The translations under genes were made by a program, and so were the position numbers. Positions 2,108 through 40,858 of a stretch of DNA of 40,858 bases are shown piece by piece; the first letter of the stretch is position 1, and each line of letters starts with the position of its first letter. The DNA comes from Candidatus Poribacteria bacterium (lineage in GTDB: Bacteria; Poribacteria; WGA-4E; JAJDTR01): assembly GCA_028820655.1 (NCBI GenBank), contig JAPPIK010000048.1:1-40858 (forward strand), in the 5' to 3' direction. A model generated the notes under the pieces. The model was not told the origin of the DNA and did not search any database. It saw only the letters and a program-made list of their open reading frames with translations.

Positions 2108-5100
2108 ATGAACCAACACAAAAACGACATCAAGAACGCCCTCAAGCAGTTCACCGACGGAAACCTCGCCGACAACGCGCGGCGCCTCCTCGACACCCTC
2201 GGCTATTGCAGCAAAAGAACAATGTCCCTCGAACCCAACACCGCCGAGGAATTCATTTATAATTTCGATCCGTCAAAGACAATAAATGCGAACCGGGCGC
2301 TGCTTGATGAATGGGAATCCATTGACATCTTGTTCCAACTGACAAGCGGCGAAATCACCCTGAGCGGCCAAGCCGCACTAGGCTTTGAGAGCAGCGGAAT
2401 AGATAATAGCATCTATCAATCCTACCTCTTCTTCGTTCTGAAACTGCGCGGCGGCAGTTACTCCCGCACCAAGCTTTCGGATATCACTCGCGAAATCAAC
2501 AAGCTCACCCCGATGCCCGCGATGGTAATCTTCCAGCACGGCAGATTGTTGACCTTCGCGGTTATCGATCGGCGTTTACACAGACGCGACGAATCAAGGG
2601 ATGTGCTCGAAAAAGTGACGCTGATTAAGGACATCAATCTCGGGGCGCCCCACCGCGCGCACATCGACATCCTATTCAACCTCTCGCATCGGCAGCGACA
2701 ATTCGCGAATTTCAACGCGCTCCATGAAGCCTGGAAAGAAGCGCTGGACACAGAGACGCTCAACAGAGATTTCTACAAGGGGTTGTTCAAGTGGTTTGAA
2801 TGGGCAGTGTGTGAGGCGAAGTTCCCGGCGGAAGAAGCGAATACGTTAAACCCGCAGGAACACGTTATCCGCTTAATCACCCGCCTATTGTTCGTTTGGT
2901 TTCTCAAGGAGAAGGGATTGGTCGCCGAGGAGTTGTTTCAGGAGGATGGTGTACGAGACTTGTTGAAAGACTACGACCGTGAGGACGGCGATTCCTACTA
3001 CCGTGCCGTGTTGCAAAACCTGTTCTTCGCCACGCTGAACACCGAGATAGAGAAGCGTGAGTTTAGCGCTGAGGCAAACGCCACGCATCGGGACTTCTCA
3101 CGGTATCGTTACAAAAGCCAAATCAGCAACCCGGATAAACTGCTGGAGTTGTTCGCTCAAACGCCCTTCATCAACGGCGGGCTGTTCGATTGCTTGGACA
3201 GCGAGGAGGCAACGGACGATGGCGGCTACCGGATCGACTGTTTTTCGGATAGGCACTACAAAAAACTGAGCCTCCCCAACCGTCTCTTTTTCCACAAGGA
3301 CGACGGTCTGTTTCCCTTGTTGAAACACTATAAGTTCACGGTTGAGGAGAACACGCCGATAGAGCAGGAGGTGGCGCTGGATCCCGAACTGCTCGGCAAG
3401 GTATTTGAAAACCTGCTGGCGGCATACAACCCGGAAACCGGCGAGTCTGCCCGCAAGCAGACCGGCTCCTACTACACGCCGCGCCCCATCGTGGACTATA
3501 TGGTAGAGGAGGCATTGGTAGCGGCGCTGGCGGGACAAGCGCGCTCGACAAACGGTGACGAAGCATTCTGGGAGGAGCGGCTGCACTATCTACTGGATTA
3601 TGCGAAGGCGTCCGACGATGCCGACCAATGGTTCAGTGCCGGCGAGGCCGATAAAATCGTGCAAGCAATCTCGGAACTCAAAATCCTCGACCCCGCCGTG
3701 GGTTCCGGAGCCTTTCCGATGGGAGTGCTCCACAAGCTGACCCTGGCGCTGCGGCGGCTTGACCAGGACAACAGCCGGTGGGAACGGTTACAGAAGGAAC
3801 GAGCGGCAAAACGCGCGGAAGCCGCATTCGACACGAAAGACGACAGAACGCGGCGTGAAGAACTCTTCGAAATCGACGAAACCTTCAAGCGCTACCGGGA
3901 TTCGGATTTCGGTCGAAAGTTGTACCTGATTCAAAACAGCATCTTCGGCGTGGATATTCAGTCTATTGCTTGCCAAATCGCCAAATTGCGCTTTTTCATC
4001 TCGCTTGCGATTGAGCAGGAGCCGGACGAAGAAGCGGAGAATTTCGGTATCAAGCCGTTGCCGAATCTGGAAACACGCTTTATTGCGGCGAACACGCTCA
4101 TCGGTCTCACCATCGTGCGGGATCTGACGAGCGTCAACGCACAGGACATAGAGCGTCAACTGCGCGATAACCGCGAGCGATATTTTCATGCCACGACACG
4201 ACGACAGAAACTTAATTGTAGACGTAGGGATAAGGTACTGCGCGGAAAATTGGCGGCGGAGTTAACGGGTGTCGGAATGCCCGCCGATGAAGCCGAAAAA
4301 ATCGCCTATTGGGATCCCTACGACCAGAATGCATCTACCGACTTTTTTGACACGGTATGGATGTTCGGGATCGCGGATGGGTTTGATGTGGTGATTGGAA
4401 ATCCGCCGTATGTGCGTCAAGAGAAAATAAAAAGCCTCAAACCGACGCTGAAGAAACAATATGATTGCTACACGGGCACAGCCGACCTCTACGTTTATTT
4501 CTATGAGCGCGGTTTTCAGTTGCTGCGGGACAATGGAATTCTGACCTACATCTCTTCAAACAAGTATTTCCGGTCCGCCTACGGCAAGAAACTAAGATCT
4601 TTTCTCGCCCGTCAATCTACTATTTCTCAACTTATTGATTTTGGTGATGCGCCGGTTTTTACCTCAATTGCGTATCCGAGCATCATCGTGATTGGCAAAA
4701 CGCGCACCGGAGGGAATCATCTTCGCGCGCTGAATTGGGAACCGGGCTCGTCCATTGAGGAATTTCGGAGGATTTTTCGGACGAAAGGGTTCTCCATGCC
4801 GCTAGATGCCCTAACCGCTGACGGTTGGCGTCTCACTTCTCCCGTGGTGTTGAATCTGTTGGAGAAACTACGCAGCACGGGTAAGCCGTTGGGTGAATAT
4901 GTAGAAGGACGATTTTATTACGGCATCAAAACAGGTTTGAACGATGCCTTCGTGGTGAACAGAGAAACACGAGATAGACTCATAGCTGAGCATTCATCGT
5001 CTGCTGAAGTATTAAAGCCCATTTTGCGTGGTCGGGATGTAAAGCGGTGGCAGGTTGATTTCGCCGAAAAGTACATCATCACCATCGAATCGTCGGAAAA

Positions 5101-5683
5101 TCGAACGCATCCGTGGTCTGGGCGATCCGCGGACGAAGCGGAGGAGGTTTTCGCCGATACTTATCCCGCAATCCACGCCCACTTGCAAGCGCATCGGGAT
5201 CGGTTGATTGAGCGTTACGATCAGGGGAAATATTTCTGGGAGTTGCGAGCGTGTGCCTATTGGAAGGAGTTTGAAAGACCGAAGATTGTCTATCCCGATA
5301 TAGCACAAAGTGCCGAGTTTGCCTTTGATGATGGCGTTTATATTTTGGGCAATACTTTGTATCTCTTGCCGACCAAGGAGATGTGGCTACTTGGATTGCT
5401 CAACAGCAAAGCAGTATTTTGGTTTTATACAAAAACAAGCACACAAATCCGAGGTGGATTTGTGAGGTTCATTGCTCAATATGTGTCACAAATCCCGGTT
5501 CCCAATATCGATCCATCACAGAAGACACTTGTTGAGAATCTAGTCAATGAGATTCTTGCCGCCAAACATAATGACCCGGACGCCGACATCACCGCGCTTG
5601 AAAATGAGATTGATCGGGTGGTATACTCACTATACAATTTAACCCGCGAGGAAATTGAGATTGTGGAGGGAGTGGCGGAGTAA
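2108..5683 (+). CDS. Type IIG (Eco57I-like) restriction-modification enzyme
   Basis: A 1,191-residue single-chain enzyme expected to methylate adenine in a specific DNA site and to cut DNA nearby. SAM-binding motif I is DPAVGSGAFPMG at residues 528-539, and the N6-adenine catalytic motif IV is NPPY at 765-768, giving the usual order of amino-methylases. The region after about residue 850 has the TaqI-like target-recognition layout (FYYGIKTGLNDAFVV; LKPILRGRDVKRW), and the C-terminus ends in the family's helical tail (LTREEIEIVEG). The N-terminal 500 residues would hold the nuclease; I cannot assign its catalytic residues with certainty. No separate S or R subunit and no BREX genes are adjacent, so a stand-alone type IIG enzyme fits best. 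No clear ribosome-binding site precedes the ATG. Length is normal and the frame is intact. Confidence 0.9.
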   Translation: MNQHKNDIKNALKQFTDGNLADNARRLLDTLGYCSKRTMSLEPNTAEEFIYNFDPSKTINANRALLDEWESIDILFQLTSGEITLSGQAALGFESSGIDNSIYQSYLFFVLKLRGGSYSRTKLSDITREINKLTPMPAMVIFQHGRLLTFAVIDRRLHRRDESRDVLEKVTLIKDINLGAPHRAHIDILFNLSHRQRQFANFNALHEAWKEALDTETLNRDFYKGLFKWFEWAVCEAKFPAEEANTLNPQEHVIRLITRLLFVWFLKEKGLVAEELFQEDGVRDLLKDYDREDGDSYYRAVLQNLFFATLNTEIEKREFSAEANATHRDFSRYRYKSQISNPDKLLELFAQTPFINGGLFDCLDSEEATDDGGYRIDCFSDRHYKKLSLPNRLFFHKDDGLFPLLKHYKFTVEENTPIEQEVALDPELLGKVFENLLAAYNPETGESARKQTGSYYTPRPIVDYMVEEALVAALAGQARSTNGDEAFWEERLHYLLDYAKASDDADQWFSAGEADKIVQAISELKILDPAVGSGAFPMGVLHKLTLALRRLDQDNSRWERLQKERAAKRAEAAFDTKDDRTRREELFEIDETFKRYRDSDFGRKLYLIQNSIFGVDIQSIACQIAKLRFFISLAIEQEPDEEAENFGIKPLPNLETRFIAANTLIGLTIVRDLTSVNAQDIERQLRDNRERYFHATTRRQKLNCRRRDKVLRGKLAAELTGVGMPADEAEKIAYWDPYDQNASTDFFDTVWMFGIADGFDVVIGNPPYVRQEKIKSLKPTLKKQYDCYTGTADLYVYFYERGFQLLRDNGILTYISSNKYFRSAYGKKLRSFLARQSTISQLIDFGDAPVFTSIAYPSIIVIGKTRTGGNHLRALNWEPGSSIEEFRRIFRTKGFSMPLDALTADGWRLTSPVVLNLLEKLRSTGKPLGEYVEGRFYYGIKTGLNDAFVVNRETRDRLIAEHSSSAEVLKPILRGRDVKRWQVDFAEKYIITIESSENRTHPWSGRSADEAEEVFADTYPAIHAHLQAHRDRLIERYDQGKYFWELRACAYWKEFERPKIVYPDIAQSAEFAFDDGVYILGNTLYLLPTKEMWLLGLLNSKAVFWFYTKTSTQIRGGFVRFIAQYVSQIPVPNIDPSQKTLVENLVNEILAAKHNDPDADITALENEIDRVVYSLYNLTREEIEIVEGVAE

Positions 5684-5685
5684 AT

Positions 5686-5783
5686 TGTCTGAATCGCGGA
5701 TTACACTGATTACGCAGATTGCGCGGATTAAAACCAATCGTCCATGTACACGAATTCAATCCGTGAATTCTGATATTCAGACA
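5686..5783 (+). repeat. 98-bp repeat with TGTCTGAAT/ATTCAGACA ends
   Basis: Starts 3 bp after the type IIG stop codon with TGTCTGAATCGCGGATTA and closes with ATTCAGACA, giving perfect 9-bp inverted ends. The interior has GATTACGCAGATTGCGCGG units and the inverted pair GAATTCAATCCGTGAATTC. Related copies are at 374, 7444 and 9901. It may be a non-autonomous mobile repeat; no transposase is near. Confidence 0.7.
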
Positions 5784-7443: not shown

Positions 7444-7487
7444 AGTCTGAATCGCGGATTAAATGGATTACGCAGATTACGTGGATA
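7444..7487 (+). repeat. TGTCTGAAT-type repeat, partial copy
   Basis: Reads AGTCTGAATCGCGGATTA followed by ATGGATTACGCAGATTACG. It matches the start of the 5686 repeat in the same orientation and at the same place relative to a type IIG stop codon. The far inverted end is not recognisable. Confidence 0.6.
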
Positions 7488-7496
7488 AAAAACCGT

Positions 7497-7736: not shown

Positions 7737-9491
7737 ATGCCAGAATTGAATTCTGTGCCTGTAGGCTTTGTATACGATCTCATGAGTGGACCTAACAGAC
7801 ATATTGGAGACGATAGTAAAACGGTAACTCCAAGGTTGCACGATGCTACAGAACATTACAGGCGCCATATTGCAACAAATCAACTTAGTGGTGAGATCGG
7901 GAATGCAAATGAAGAATGCAGCAAAGTTATGGCACTCAATCTCAATGATGCCACAGCCTATAACACCCGCGGAATAGCGTACGGCGAAAAAGGCGATTTT
8001 AGCAGAGCAATTGAAAATTTTGACGCAGCGATAGACCTGAAGTCTGATTATGTCGCAGCCTATTTCAATCGCGGTTTAGCCTACAGTGAACTAGGCGATG
8101 TTGTACATGCCATTAAAGATTTCACCCGAGTAGTACAATTGGATCCCAGTTATGTTGTGGCGTATAACAACCGTGGTGCAGCCTACGACATCCAAGAGAA
8201 GTTGGACCTTGCAATTGCAGACTATACCAAAACTATAGAACTGAATCCTAATTATTCCCAACCATATAATAATCGTGGTGTTGTATACAACAAAAAGGGG
8301 GATTTTGACAGTGCGATTGCGGACTTTAACAACGCGATAGGCTTAAGACACGATGATGCTGAGGCCTATAGCAATCGCGGTTTAGCGTACCTATACAAAG
8401 GCGATTATGACCTTTCCATTGCGGACTTTAACAGGGCTTTAGAATTGGCGCCATTCCTTGCCGGCGGGTATTACAATCGCGGCATTGCTTACAGTATGAA
8501 GGGCGATCACGATATTGCCATCGCAGACTTCACGAAAGCAATGGAGCACCACGAGGGCGACGCCGAAACCCATTACAATCGCGGCGTAGTTTGCGGCATG
8601 AAAGGTGATTATAGACGTGCGATTGCAGACTTTAGCGTTGTAATTGAAATGAAACCCACCGACGCCAGGGCCTATGCCAATCGCGGCATGGCCTACAGCA
8701 ATCACGGTGACTATGATCGTGCTATCGGCGACTATACCAAAGCCATAGTTCTGAAACCCGATGATGCCGATGTCTATAACAACCGCGGAGTCGCCTATGG
8801 CAAAAAGGATAATTTCGACTATGCCATTTTAGATTTTACCAAAGCGATGGAGTTAAAACCTGATGATGCCAACACTTGTAACAATCGTGGCGTGGTTTAC
8901 GTCAAGAAAGGCGAATATGACCTTGCCATTGTAGACTTCAACGAGGCAATACGATTGAAACCCCATTATGCCGATGCCTATAACAACCGAGGCGCAGCTT
9001 ACAGTGACCAAAGGGAGTTCCAGCGCGCCATTGCAGACTTCAATAAGGCATTAGAATTGAAATCCGATTTTGGTAACGCATATTACAATCGTGGTGAGGC
9101 TTGGTTGCACTTGGGAGAACGGATTAAAGCAAAGTCAGACTTGAAGGTCGCGGTAGCAATGGGCGTAAATGTTGTCGCCGCGTTTCATAACCTTTACGAA
9201 AGCGCCCTAGGTTTTGAAAAAAGCAATGGTCTGAAGTTGCCCGATGACATCGCCGCAATATTGACACCCCAAGAGAATGCTATTCGCAGGAAGGAGTTTC
9301 AAGAACGAGCCGTTACATTAATTGAGCGACTGTCGACAGAAGAACTAAAGGTTGTTATTGACTATTTGCTAGATTTACAAAATGGAGAGGCACAAGACAC
9401 GTTTCACCAGTTGGAGATTGATGCTGAAAGTGCCCTAGAGGAAATCTTGAAGAACTACGATCGAGCATGGAAAATTCTTGCCAAACATTGA
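7737..9491 (+). CDS. 12-repeat TPR protein with antitoxin-like C-terminus
   Basis: A 584-residue protein with a GAAGGAG ribosome-binding site. Residues from about 75 to 475 form twelve regular 34-residue TPRs, each carrying a (T/N)RG-x-AY signature such as NRGLAYSELGD, NRGIAYSMKGD and NRGVAYGKKDN. The region after residue 519 is different: FQERAVTLIERLSTEELKVV, then IDYLLDLQNGEA, then acidic helices. It has the pattern of small addiction-module antitoxins, which often start with an 'LIERL..E.L..V..FL..L' helix and continue into a flexible partner-binding tail. The Doc-like toxin begins within its stop codon. I infer that TPR scaffold and antitoxin are fused in one chain. The TPR assignment is firm; the antitoxin assignment is by pattern only. 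No DNA-binding domain is visible. Confidence 0.85.
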   Translation: MPELNSVPVGFVYDLMSGPNRHIGDDSKTVTPRLHDATEHYRRHIATNQLSGEIGNANEECSKVMALNLNDATAYNTRGIAYGEKGDFSRAIENFDAAIDLKSDYVAAYFNRGLAYSELGDVVHAIKDFTRVVQLDPSYVVAYNNRGAAYDIQEKLDLAIADYTKTIELNPNYSQPYNNRGVVYNKKGDFDSAIADFNNAIGLRHDDAEAYSNRGLAYLYKGDYDLSIADFNRALELAPFLAGGYYNRGIAYSMKGDHDIAIADFTKAMEHHEGDAETHYNRGVVCGMKGDYRRAIADFSVVIEMKPTDARAYANRGMAYSNHGDYDRAIGDYTKAIVLKPDDADVYNNRGVAYGKKDNFDYAILDFTKAMELKPDDANTCNNRGVVYVKKGEYDLAIVDFNEAIRLKPHYADAYNNRGAAYSDQREFQRAIADFNKALELKSDFGNAYYNRGEAWLHLGERIKAKSDLKVAVAMGVNVVAAFHNLYESALGFEKSNGLKLPDDIAAILTPQENAIRRKEFQERAVTLIERLSTEELKVVIDYLLDLQNGEAQDTFHQLEIDAESALEEILKNYDRAWKILAKH

Positions 9492-9895
9492 GATATCTGA
9501 CCATTGGGGAAATCCTGTGGGTTGCCAAGAAATGGGTGTGCGATTACAAGCTGCGGGATAAAGAGAGATTAGACTATTTGGTTGAGGCAGTTGGTGGAAC
9601 GTGGGGTGACATAGAACTATATCCGACATTGGCCAAAAAAGCTGCTGTATATGCACATCATATCATTACTGGACATATATTCATGAACGGCAATAAGCGA
9701 ATCGGGATAACTTGTGCTCTCTGGTTTTTGGTTAAGAATGGTTGTACTCTACGTCTTAGCATTGATGATTCGATAGTCTGGGTGGGCTATAGGATTGCAG
9801 ATAGAACAATTACCGACCTTGACATTATCGCCGACTATATGAAATTGTGGATTCGCACACCCGTGGGCGAAGATGACGCACATGGTTCAGATTGA
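9488..9895 (+). CDS. doc: Doc/Fic-fold (death-on-curing) toxin
   Basis: A Doc-family protein of 135 residues if it starts at TTG 9488, which overlaps the TGA of the TPR gene (9489-9491). That start gives the family-typical beginning LRYLTIGEIL. An in-frame ATG at 9467 would add seven residues. The Fic/Doc core is HIFMNGNKR at residues 63-71, followed by the helix ITCALWFLVKNGCTL, and ELYPTLAKKAAV matches the helix before the motif. Doc enzymes of phage P1 type phosphorylate EF-Tu and stop translation. The acidic residue of HxFx(D/E)GN is Asn here (N67). The proline is also missing (HIF for HPF), so activity may be altered. There is no separate Phd antitoxin; the upstream TPR C-terminus is the best candidate for neutralisation. 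Confidence 0.85.
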   Translation: MRYLTIGEILWVAKKWVCDYKLRDKERLDYLVEAVGGTWGDIELYPTLAKKAAVYAHHIITGHIFMNGNKRIGITCALWFLVKNGCTLRLSIDDSIVWVGYRIADRTITDLDIIADYMKLWIRTPVGEDDAHGSD

Positions 9896-9900
9896 ATATG

Positions 9901-9939
9901 CGAAATCCGTCTAATCCGCGAAAATCCGTGATTCAGACA
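9901..9939 (-). repeat. TGTCTGAAT-type repeat, inverted copy at island edge
   Basis: CGAAATCCGTCTAATCCGCG followed by AAAATCCGTGATTCAGACA, the same orientation as the copy at 374 and inverted relative to those at 5686 and 7444. It lies 6 bp after the Doc stop and marks the right edge of the accessory island; metabolic genes begin immediately after. Confidence 0.65.
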
Positions 9940-15368: not shown

Positions 15369-15748
15369 AGCGCGCCATTGCCCCTGTCGGAATTATTCTT
15401 TTAGCAAGTAACACTCATTTTTCGCTCTATGACAGGCTTTGAATAAGCGTTCCTTCGTAGAATGGTATCACTCCAGAGGAGTGATATGTCAATAGAACAC
15501 GATTCCTTATCGCGTCTGCACTCCAGAGGAGTGCAATGTCGAGTGTTATTTGATAGTGTGCCATTATCCCTGCCGGGATAATTCTTTCAGCAAGTAACAC
15601 TGGTTTTTTTCGCTCAATGATTAGCCGTGAAAAGTGTTCCTTCGTCGTCTGGTTTTCACTCCAGCGGAGTGCTATGTCAATAGAATCATGATGCGTCCAA
15701 TCGCCGCACTCCAGCGGAGTGCAATGTCGAGTGTTACTTGAGAGCAAG
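15369..15748. repeat. Two tandem ~188-bp units with CACTCC hairpins
   Basis: Unit 1 is about 15369-15556 and unit 2 about 15557-15748. Each runs GCCATT-CCCTG-CGG-ATTCTTT-AGCAAGTAACACT, then AAG(C/T)GTTCCTTCGT, then two hairpins of type CACTCCAG(A/C)GGAGTG separated by ATGTCAATAGAA, ending in CAATGTCGAGTGTTA. The same pair recurs at 29150-29638. There is no coding capacity. It fills the interval between the E1 gene and inositol-phosphate synthase; 15,232-15,368 shows nothing recognisable beyond the palindrome AACCTAGGTT near the E1 stop. Confidence 0.8.
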
Positions 15749-17106: not shown

Positions 17107-17141
17107 AATCAAACGAGTGGATAGCGAGTGCGATAGAGATC
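17107..17141 (+). repeat. 35-bp GATC-ended element, copy 2
   Basis: AATCAAACGAGTGG to GCGATAGAGATC, preceded by CCCGTAGGCGGG and followed by CTCTTGCCCCAC. The flanks are consistent with a GTAGGCGGG hairpin repeat split by the element. Confidence 0.75.
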
Positions 17142-17322
17142 CTCTTGCCCCACTTTGTACAGACTTGATTGGCGCTATTAATGCGCGGCTGATATATAGA
17201 GATGGTATTATAGTCATTAAGGAGTGCGATAGAACGTCCCACTGTTAGTTTGCGCATCACAACCACAATCTAAAGAAGATCAAGATTTTAATCGGCAGTT
17301 CTAGTTTTCCCCAAACTCTGTA

Positions 17323-21135: not shown

Positions 21136-21240
21136 GATCAAGCGAGTGAATAGCGAGTGCGATAGAGATCCAGCAAGCGAGTGCATAGCGAGCGCGGTAG
21201 AGATCCAGCAAGCGAGTGCATAGCGAGCGCGGTAGAGATC
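21136..21240 (+). repeat. Triple head-to-tail 35-bp element
   Basis: Three 35-bp units: 21136-21170 (begins GATCAAGCGAGTG), 21171-21205 and 21206-21240. Units 2 and 3 are identical (begin CAGCAAGCGAGTGC, end GCGGTAGAGATC). They are bounded by GGTAGGTG before and TTCGAACCGCACC after, which together resemble a split copy of the hairpin at 17323. The unit itself has an internal half-repeat (GCGAGTG-NATA twice). Confidence 0.9.
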
Positions 21241-21550
21241 CCTTCGAACCGCACCGGCTCCCAACACTAACCATATTTCTTGGAAAATAAACCATTTAGT
21301 CTAGCAATGGTTTGTAGTAGCTAATACCTGATGGGAGTTCTATCACACAGGATCATCTATACCCTCACTATCCCTTCCGTTGATCGTTGTCCCCTCGCTT
21401 GATTGTAATGCCTAAGAGGACAAGATAAATGGGAAAGCAGAAAGCGCACAATGATTCAGATGCGAAAATTATGATGAGTTGCTGGTGCTGTAATCTATCT
21501 GACCCTGACACAACCTTCCAATCTTCCCGCCTTCCGCCCTTTCAAGTGGC

Positions 21551-26145: not shown

Positions 26146-26308
26146 CTGTTTAGTGCATCGTTTGGTTCGTAGTATTACAATTCGTCGCACGTCCGGTCTA
26201 GGCATGTAAGCCCCCGATTCGTCGGAATCAGCATCGTACTTCTCTACTCGGCACGTCCCCGGCCCCGCTCGGTCTGGATTGGCAAATCCAGACCGATGGA
26301 CTAAACAG
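26146..26308 (+). mobile_element. MITE-like element, 9-bp inverted ends, copy 1
   Basis: 163 bp bounded by CTGTTTAGT and ACTAAACAG (perfect 9-bp inverted ends). The interior contains GTAAGCCCCCGAT, CTCGGTCTGG and the hairpin GGTCTGGATT-GGCA-AATCCAGACC. A second copy lies at 39414-39582. It encodes nothing. Target duplications are not evident at either copy. It lies in the gap before the helicase gene; the remaining 26,309-26,493 holds no gene. Confidence 0.75.
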
Positions 26309-29095: not shown

Positions 29096-29114
29096 CACAA
29101 TCTGTTAGATTGTG
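29096..29114. repeat. Hairpin CACAATCT/AGATTGTG, copy 1
   Basis: Eight-base arms around GTT, followed by GCATGCGATACGCGAACTGACAG. A near-identical stretch lies at 37076 (followed by CATACGCATACTGACCG), so this repeat is at least about 40 bp long. It is intergenic. Confidence 0.75.
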
Positions 29115-29149
29115 CATGCGATACGCGAACTGACAGTTGGCACGGTAAA

Positions 29150-29638
29150 ATCCCCGTCAGAATGATTCTTTCAGCGAATAACGCTCATTCATCGATCTAT
29201 TATAGGATTTGAAAAAGCGTTCTTTCCTAGAATGGATTTCACTCCATAGGGGATCAAGCGAGTGGATGGAGTTTCCATAGAGATCTTAGATGTCAATAGA
29301 ACACGATTCCTGACCGCGTCTGCACTCCAGCGGATCAAGGGAGTGGATAGCGACCGCGATAGAGATCCCGGCAATGTCAATAGAATCGTGAGACGTCCAA
29401 TCTCCGCGCTCCAGCGGTGCGCAATGTCGAGTGTTACTTGAGAGCACGCCATTATCCCTGTCGGAATAGTTCTTTCAGTAGGTAACACCGGTTTTCACAC
29501 CTTGGTTAGCTTTGAAAAAGCGTTCCATGATAGATATTTCCCGCGTATCGCACTCCAGAGGAGTGCAATGTCAATAGAATCATGAAGCGTTCAATCTCCG
29601 CACTCCAGCGGAGTGCAATATTCAGTGTTACTTGAGAC
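29150..29638. repeat. CACTCC-hairpin repeat pair with nested 35-bp elements
   Basis: Two units like those at 15369. The first (about 29150-29448) has two 35-bp elements inside its hairpins, at 29252-29285 and 29333-29367, splitting CACTCCATAGG... and CACTCCAGCGG.... The second (about 29449-29638) is uninterrupted, with CACTCCAGAGGAGTG and CACTCCAGCGGAGTG. No gene fills 28,948-29,771. Confidence 0.85.
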
Positions 29639-29771
29639 CGTCTCGGCGTAACAAAGCGAAGGGCAGAGATATGGGCGGGATTGACCAAATCCTGAAAAAC
29701 CAAATAAGCGGAGCGATTGACAGTGACAGCAATAAATACTACGTAATTTCTTAAATGGATTGGAGTTTAGA

Positions 29772-34367: not shown

Positions 34368-34428
34368 GATCAGGCGAGCGAATTGCGAGTAAGACTCTCT
34401 ATCGCCCTCGTTATTCACTCGGTTGATT
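34368..34428. repeat. 35-bp element, head-to-head pair
   Basis: A plus-strand copy begins GATCAGGCGAGCG (34368) and meets a minus-strand copy (34395-34428) reading CTCTATCGCCCTCG then TTATTCACTCGG. Together they form an inverted pair upstream of the glycosyltransferase start. Confidence 0.65.
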
Positions 34429-39413: not shown

Positions 39414-39582
39414 CTGTTTAGTACATCGTTTGGTTCGTAGTGTTACAATTTTACGCACTTTCGGTCTGGGAATGTAAGCCCCCGATGGGGCGGAATTCGC
39501 ATTATACTTCCCTGCTCGGCCTGTTTCCTGCCCCCTCCCCGCTTGGTCTGGATTGGCAAATCCAGACCGATGGACTAAATAG
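39414..39582 (+). mobile_element. MITE-like element, copy 2
   Basis: 169 bp from CTGTTTAGT to ACTAAATAG; one base of the right inverted end differs from copy 1. Internal similarity to 26146-26308 runs along its length (CATCGTTTGGTTCGTAGT; GTAAGCCCCCGAT; TCTGGATTGGCAAATCCAGA). It lies upstream of map, just outside its start. The rest of 39,395-39,761 has no gene except the element copy at 39681. Confidence 0.75.
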
Positions 39583-39680
39583 TCGCCAATTCTCCGTTGG
39601 CTCAATATTCATCTGTCAGCAGAACCCAATAGCGTTAATTGAATCTTATCAATGCCGGGGAAGAAAATCTGTAATGGGGG

Positions 39681-39714
39681 ATTTGCTATCGCCTTCGTTA
39701 ATCACTCAGTTGAT
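39681..39714 (-). repeat. 35-bp element, minus-strand copy
   Basis: ATTTGCTATCGCCTTCG then TTAATCACTCAGTTGAT, an inverse degenerate copy located downstream of the DUF362 gene. Confidence 0.6.
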
Positions 39715-39761
39715 GTCCTCGTTCAGACGCTTGATTCTCTTCAATCCTGTACAGTCCGAAA

Positions 39762-40792: not shown

Positions 40793-40826
40793 AATCAAAG
40801 GAACGGATAGTGATTGCGATAGTGTG
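40793..40826 (+). repeat. 35-bp element, copy at window end
   Basis: AATCAAAGGAACGGATAG then TGATTGCGATAGTG, inside a GTAGGGTGG / CCACC frame as at 456-509. The window ends in another GTAGGGTGCAAT, which is cut off. Confidence 0.6.
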
Positions 40827-40858
40827 CCCCTCCCCACCATTTCCTGTAGGGTGCAATC

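Follow-up and report, generated by a model that had tools for sequence, protein, structure and literature searches.

At 29252-29367 of the window, a stretch of 40,858 nt from a Candidatus Poribacteria genome, the halves of a small hairpin repeat are held apart by a short sequence that recurs elsewhere in the same stretch. The locus raises the question of whether this sequence is an insert in its own right, and by which means such a short sequence would come to lie inside other repeats. The original prediction took it for a 35-bp element nested within the hairpin repeat and targeted to palindromes. Here, the window (C13:1-40858 of genome G000; 5.88 Mb, 61 contigs) was compared with the rest of its genome, with a genome of the same genus (G001) and with further members of the phylum.

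Copies of the unit and their hosts in the window

The nested sequence is a hairpin unit of 34-36 nt with the consensus (A/G)ATCAAGCGAGTGGATAGCGAGTGCGATAGAGATC(YY), far below coding size. With up to three mismatches, 211 copies were found in G000, against none for the reversed control, and 111 in G001. Exact copies made up 22 of the 211, and their flanks differed. From each of the two genomes, 60 stretches surrounding listed copies or orthologous sites were fetched (1,205,475 bases of G000, window included, and 1,092,080 bases of G001, ~2.3 Mb in all). They held 669 places with the 34-nt core at up to nine mismatches and none with the core read backwards; the stretches had been selected for carrying copies, so this count does not stand for a genome-wide density. 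The location of the unit is almost wholly intergenic: open reading frames of at least 200 aa covered 70% of the sequence, yet wholly contained just 15 of the 669 copies.

A covariance model of the unit (R1) detected nine copies in the window at E < 1e-4, plus the weak unit at 29252. The nesting at 29252-29367 is real and comprises one good and one weak copy. The good copy (29333-29368, + strand, 56.9 bits) fills a CACTCCAGCGGAGTG host hairpin, whose left part, CACTCCAGCGG (29323-29333, +), was recognized against the intact copies at 15657 and 15707. The host picks up again at GGCAATGTC, from 29370 on, and intact repeats read CACTCCAGCGGAGTGCAATGTC. Positions 29323-29369 consist of CACTCCAGCGG, ATCAAGGGAGTGGATAGCGACCGCGATAGAGATC and CC, followed by GGCAATGTC. 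The second copy (29252-29286, +, 14.4 bits, E 0.27) is rearranged or degenerate and matches poorly (GATCAAG...GAGATC). It lies in a second host hairpin, which starts at 29240 and has the frame CACTCCATAGGG...TTAGATGTC. Intact, empty hosts of the form CACTCCAG(A/C)GGAGTG are present four times at 15469-15721 (+; at 15469, 15519, 15657 and 15707) and twice at 29551-29615 (+; at 29551 and 29601). These six occurrences at up to two mismatches compare with 0.04 expected in the window, and the intact hairpin occurs 192 times exactly in G000.

The copies reported earlier at 465, 17107 and 21136 do sit within hairpin frames, but the frames begin with GTAGGGTGG, GTAGGCGGG and GTAGGTG, and not with CACTCCAGCGGAGTG. 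The one at 464-499 (+, 35.7 bits) has a REP-like GTAGGGTGG...TGCCCACC frame, and that at 17107-17142 (+, 56.8 bits) a GTAGGCGGG...CTTGCCCC frame. At 21136-21241 (+), three units lie head to tail with a 35-bp period inside GTAGGTG...AACCGCACC (57.9, 31.2 and 47.3 bits). Three copies had been overlooked, at 34393-34428 (-, 52.4 bits), 39680-39715 (-, 44.8 bits) and 40793-40828 (+, 43.4 bits), the last in GTAGGGTGG...CCCCACC. The nested-element phenomenon is bigger than the prediction had it. Rfam 15 covariance models gave no match in the window at the gathering threshold, and none in 29100-29700 at E ≤ 1.

The window carries other repeats as well. A second dispersed palindrome, GGTCTGGATTGGCAAATCCAGACC, is found at 26257-26308 and 39531-39582, in copies that are 92% identical, and again near 83.5-84.5 kb of the same contig (C13). 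An intergenic repeat of AATCCGCG/AATCCGTG-like words (369-440, 5687-5733, 7445-7491 and 9868-9939) is a host of the unit in some places elsewhere. Within one open reading frame (7737-9491), nine 61-nt repeats with 102-bp spacing (8062-9040) encode a 34-aa protein repeat, of TPR type as judged by its period. Positions 2108-5683 encode a large Eco57I-type restriction-modification methylase with a TaqI_C specificity domain.

Empty sites, insertion rule and self-nesting

Paralogous empty sites were searched with flanks of 22 + 22 nt, at up to four mismatches each and at most 25 nt apart. Such a site was found for 239 of the 669 copies in the G000 and G001 stretches. The best gap was 8 in 92 of them, 7 in 72, 9 in 22, 10 in 14, 6 in 11 and another value in 28. 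Gap 8, the commonest, corresponds to a net gain of 34 bp, in which xG/CG/x becomes xG/ATCAA..GATC/YY/x and the YG is replaced. G precedes the insert in 89 of the 92 empty sites of this class. The replaced pair was CG in 41 of 65 distinct contexts, and the YY that stands in its place is mostly CC or TT. Pairs with gap 7 mostly reflect tandem growth by 35 bp. The predicted length of 35 bp is thus that of the tandem period, whereas the net insertion is usually 34 bp.

With flanks at up to two mismatches, the net 34-bp rule was seen in CTCCAGNGGAG, CCCCAGNGGGG, GTAGGGTGCGCAC and the unit itself, the host forms read at this limit including CTCCAGCGGAG and CCCCAG(A/C)GGGG. In the window, the copy at 29333 has empty paralogues with a net difference of 34 bp, for example at three places in one fetched stretch (L172) and one place in another (L068), and the copy at 40793 has one in a third (L182), also net 34 bp. 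The net gain in the GTAGGCGGGGCATCTTGCCCC host is 32-33, and there the insert is preceded by A, which makes for a less clean junction; deviating junctions (net 32-36) exist in some pairs. A candidate rule by which the purine after C sets the base left of the insert (GCG giving G, GCA giving A) was rejected; it held in 60 of 61 GCG cases but in 10 of 15 GCA cases. Genome-wide indel calling by one alignment run yielded few clean cases.

Across long syntenic stretches, G001 and the window share 82-91% identity, and a neighbour-anchored comparison returned 21 G000 copies with an orthologous place, nine of which were read in addition to those of the window. At the 29252 site, G001 (C127) has a plain empty hairpin, CACTCCAGCGGAGTGAGATGTG, and the remaining repeat array is absent. 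A G000 hairpin at C42:267447 is filled by three units, one nested and one tandem, where G001 reads GTAGGGTGGGCATTGCCCACC; at C41:110641, one unit (net 34 bp) sits in what G001 has, on that strand, as GTAGGGTGGGCACCGCCCACC. Two copies, C13:34394 (the window's copy at 34393) and C44:81737, are common to both genomes. Around 17107 and 21136, G001 departs from the window over the entire intergenic stretch, and no clean empty site is readable. Since these are comparisons of two genomes, they leave the polarity (gain in G000 or loss in G001) unfixed. The original idea of a precise insertion, with junctions that are conserved and empty sites that match, is borne out by the paralogous and orthologous comparisons alike; the contrary outcome that had been named, missing empty sites or random junctions, did not arise, as empty sites were found.

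The 669 copies occupy 460 distinct 6+6 frames. GTAG hairpins account for 178 of them, self-nesting for 168 (83 by a strict and 85 by a loose test) and CCCCAGNGGGG for 56; a further 44 directly follow another copy, 33 lie in CTCCAGNGG and 12 in CACT-type heptamer repeats. The remainder comprises 169 other frames, many of which are worn forms of the same hosts, and nine at stretch ends. Independent insertions are fewer than copies, because mobile hosts copy the unit along. In the 83 strictly self-nested cases, the copy is flanked on either side by half of another unit, which was entered after position 23 in 50 cases, after 17 or 18 in 24 and after 9-12 in nine. Most of these inserts follow a G and have lost a YG. 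The inner unit usually has a stem different from that of the outer one, so these nests are not simple duplications.

There is only partial support for targeting to palindromes. Hairpin repeats make up many of the hosts, but the unit also enters itself and the CACT-type heptamers, and the constant determinant is the G/YG trinucleotide, which is the firmer one. In a test of 316 distinct non-nested frames, from which nested and tandem copies had first been dropped, only 35% were hairpin-like by either of two criteria, with single-criterion controls of 12% and 6%. A spanning energy of -4 or lower was reached by 17% of the frames, only slightly more than the 12% seen when flanks were re-paired, and 20% had a hairpin in the final 16 nt of their left flank, compared with 6% in the control. 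On these results, we keep the palindrome claim as a partial one.

Fold and folding strand

The stem pairs of the unit covary. Among 572 distinct sequences, columns 10-18 are GC in 359, AT in 93 and CG in 90; columns 7-21 are CG in 387, TA in 70 and GC in 55; columns 6-22 are GC in 217, GT in 179, AT in 82 and CG in 64; and columns 11-17 are TG in 243, TA in 172 and CG in 135. Between these pairs, G8/A20 and A9/G19 are nearly constant. Among 92 diverse copies taken from 359 distinct clean ones, 89.9% of cells were paired, compared with 61.9% after shuffling, and double-change cells numbered 94, compared with 23.7; the signal was lost on sliding the partner. As the copies are related, shuffles alone overstate this signal, a bias against which the slid controls and the variety of pair types serve as guards. 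RNAalifold, unprompted, returned the same four stem pairs and one hairpin only.

A pattern that left the pairs 6-22, 7-21 and 10-18 free matched 306 places in the fetched stretches, 100 of them distinct. All three pairs were formed in 74 of these 100, and the single pairs in 91, 91 and 92, respectively, against 64, 58 and 53 expected. G.T wobbles at 6-22 and 11-17 were common (134 and 174 of 465) and their A.C mirror images rare (10 and 5), which identifies the written strand as the folding strand. The upkeep of the fold in dispersed copies suggests that the lineages that spread needed it. A closing helix of GATC with GATC (positions 1-3 against 31-33) was weighed but rejected, because 186 of the 572 sequences have A at position 31 whereas C3 does not change.

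Distribution, explanations and candidate enzyme

The distribution of the unit across the phylum is patchy. A pattern scan of named genomes matched six stretches, all from Candidatus Poribacteria metagenome-assembled genomes, and nothing else. The covariance model detected the element in 7 of 84 genomes of the phylum, strongly in G000, G001 and G004 and weakly in G014, G010, G079 and G080 (at least 21, 1, 2 and 3 matches). These counts are out of ~82 candidates scored per genome, and the high ones are lower bounds; in G004, which belongs to another family of the order, 141 of 150 scored candidates matched. The free-pair pattern was present in 5 of the 84 genomes, with 384, 299, 15, 9 and 1 places in G000, G001, G004, G014 and G010, and none in the controls. 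Matches in the four weak genomes were not counted as spread, because they lie mostly on few small contigs that may be mis-binned. Small unit-bearing contigs in otherwise unit-poor genomes (G014:C72, G080:C352 and G079:C49) would fit either transfer or mis-binning. Viral contigs gave no unit match, plasmids gave none to one 70-nt query, and no earlier report of such repeats in Poribacteria was found in the open-licence literature.

We consider the unit to be, more likely than not, a non-autonomous, structure-dependent micro mobile element of 34-36 nt that is moved in trans; it would rank among the smallest known mobile elements. Movement would pass through a single-stranded intermediate. The written strand, once single-stranded, would fold into a short hairpin of two base pairs, a tandem G.A/A.G step, two more base pairs and a G(A/G)ATA loop, flanked by the constant sequences ATCAA and GCGATAG. 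An enzyme acting in trans may then recognize the fold, place the unit after a G and replace the next two letters, usually CG. Its targets would mostly be small repeats, namely GTAG-tagged REP-like hairpins, CCCCAGNGGGG and CTCCAGNGGAG, and also the unit itself, whose own CG and YG steps are targets, so that nests and tandems could grow. Copies lodged in REPs could additionally ride on REP movement. Counting against the micro-element are the draft state of the assemblies, the lack of the GTAG tag of REPs and the orientation of the copies, which shows no bias relative to local GC skew (159 vs 135 clusters, p 0.18) such as a lagging-strand mechanism on single-stranded DNA might give.

The copies could also arise with no dedicated enzyme, if template switching or gene conversion between hairpin repeats copied the unit during replication. 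Hosts that are often palindromic and repeated, tandem 35-bp arrays, their fast turnover between G000 and G001 and the variable junctions (net 32-36) would all fit. However, insertions into hosts that have no sequence in common, and into three positions within the unit, show the same two ends and have replaced the same YG, which microhomology-driven switching does not predict, and pairing is kept through compensatory change; we hold this origin to be unlikely. Movement as an RNA copy that is later reverse transcribed, reportedly the route proposed for cyanobacterial SDRs, would agree with one structured strand, with its wobble pairs and with a tandem G.A step, a kind that is common in RNA. We rate it as quite unlikely, given a search limited to RVT_1 reverse transcriptases that found none in the element-rich G000 and G004 and one match below the cut-off in G001.

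A selected regulatory RNA or protein-binding domain that was added to hairpins, as a terminator or mRNA stabilizer, would explain why nearly all copies are intergenic and why the fold is conserved. Nested and tandem copies, presence and absence at orthologous places, the diversity of frames, the restriction to 7 of 84 genomes and the lack of an Rfam match make it very improbable. That the mosaic is made of chance or decayed repeats which look nested has in its favour the weakness of the 29252 copy by itself, and next to no probability after the controls, in which the reversed core matched 0 places as against 669, and the free-pair pattern 0 as against 384 in G000.

Among known systems, the nearest likeness appears to be with the SDRs of Nostoc, and it is one of behaviour only. 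Elhai et al. are said to have described in 2008 that the SDRs of Nostoc and its relatives, of 21-27 nt, are nested in other repeats and in themselves, and that their hairpins reportedly show compensatory stem changes. The unit is likewise tens of nt long, nests in repeats and in itself (83 of 669) and has compensatory stem changes, but at 34-36 nt it is larger, and Poribacteria are a phylum far from the cyanobacteria in which SDRs were described. A further shared trait is the precise site, as SDR5 is inserted at one exact point of HIP1 (PMC4390886). The unit, however, replaces YG after G rather than splitting HIP1, and its tandem G.A step is constant. Short palindromic elements of Volvox organelles are inserted into one another and thought to be selfish (PMC2670323). 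Unlike the unit, they are simple organellar palindromes of 11-77 nt, with no fixed target rule seen in the passages on them (PMC2670323).

The unit shares with the REP/REPIN system (RAYT, TnpA_REP) small intergenic hairpins in hundreds of copies and the presence of RAYT genes in the genome. REPs are palindromes of 20-40 bp, mostly tagged by GTAG or CGTC (PMC3733652), and a few families are inserted within palindromes (its section 7), so that insertion into palindromes has precedent. The E. coli RAYT cleaves single-stranded REP at CT, for which GTAG and a mismatch bulge in the stem are required (PMC8266576); the constant mismatch of the unit resembles this bulge. As an intergenic, high-copy palindrome of 34-36 nt (211 copies), the unit falls within the REP size class. 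However, it has no GTAG or CGTC tag and a constant 5' flank, ATCAA, instead; GTAG is present only in some of its hosts (178 of 669), and it replaces a dinucleotide and sits inside GTAG hairpins rather than being one. Its stem mismatch is constant, but for want of the tag we do not class it among the REPs. IS200/IS605-derived MITEs (PATE-like) have two subterminal hairpins and insert without loss of target letters, whereas the unit has one hairpin and replaces two. A separate class of enzyme-driven micro-transposons, neither REPs nor IS200/IS605 derivatives, in which a folded 34-nt strand swaps for YG after G and parasitizes its own copies and REP hairpins, themselves dependants of a RAYT gene, is conceivable, though on the whole doubtful.

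The way in which elements of 20-40 letters move has been in question ever since the first accounts of REPs and SDRs. Hundreds of copies that follow a fixed target rule, together with empty sites that can be read, a fold backed by compensatory change and a small set of candidate enzymes, make it testable here. A search for a Y1 or TnpA_REP-like enzyme, suggested with the original prediction, was productive: G000 has seven Y1_Tnp matches, and both of the two that were tested are REP-associated tyrosine transposases. The four strongest have 1, 2, 4 and 3 unit copies (at up to 11 mismatches) within 1.5 kb, the three weakest none. Beside the Y1 gene in one G000 stretch (L041), three adjoining copies fill GTAGGAG..TCTCCAGGTCGCGA hairpins, and an empty form of this hairpin lies on the opposite side of the gene. 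In G004, one of the three Y1 genes has three copies within 1.4 kb, where simple arithmetic gives ~0.1 as expected; in G001, no copy among the matches listed is near the three Y1 genes that were listed. Such proximity is ambiguous, because GTAG-tagged hosts would place the unit close to RAYTs also in the case of a different moving enzyme. Of 58 relatives, 56 have Y1_Tnp, and the majority of these lack the element, so that the presence of the enzyme does not predict that of the element. To our knowledge, dinucleotide replacement is not a feature of Y1 transposition. A REP-associated Y1 (HUH) transposase is our leading candidate for the moving enzyme, if a tentative one. Directly upstream of a RAYT gene in a further stretch (L040, 400-1400), a long repeat array was noticed, with repetitive translations of its open reading frames.
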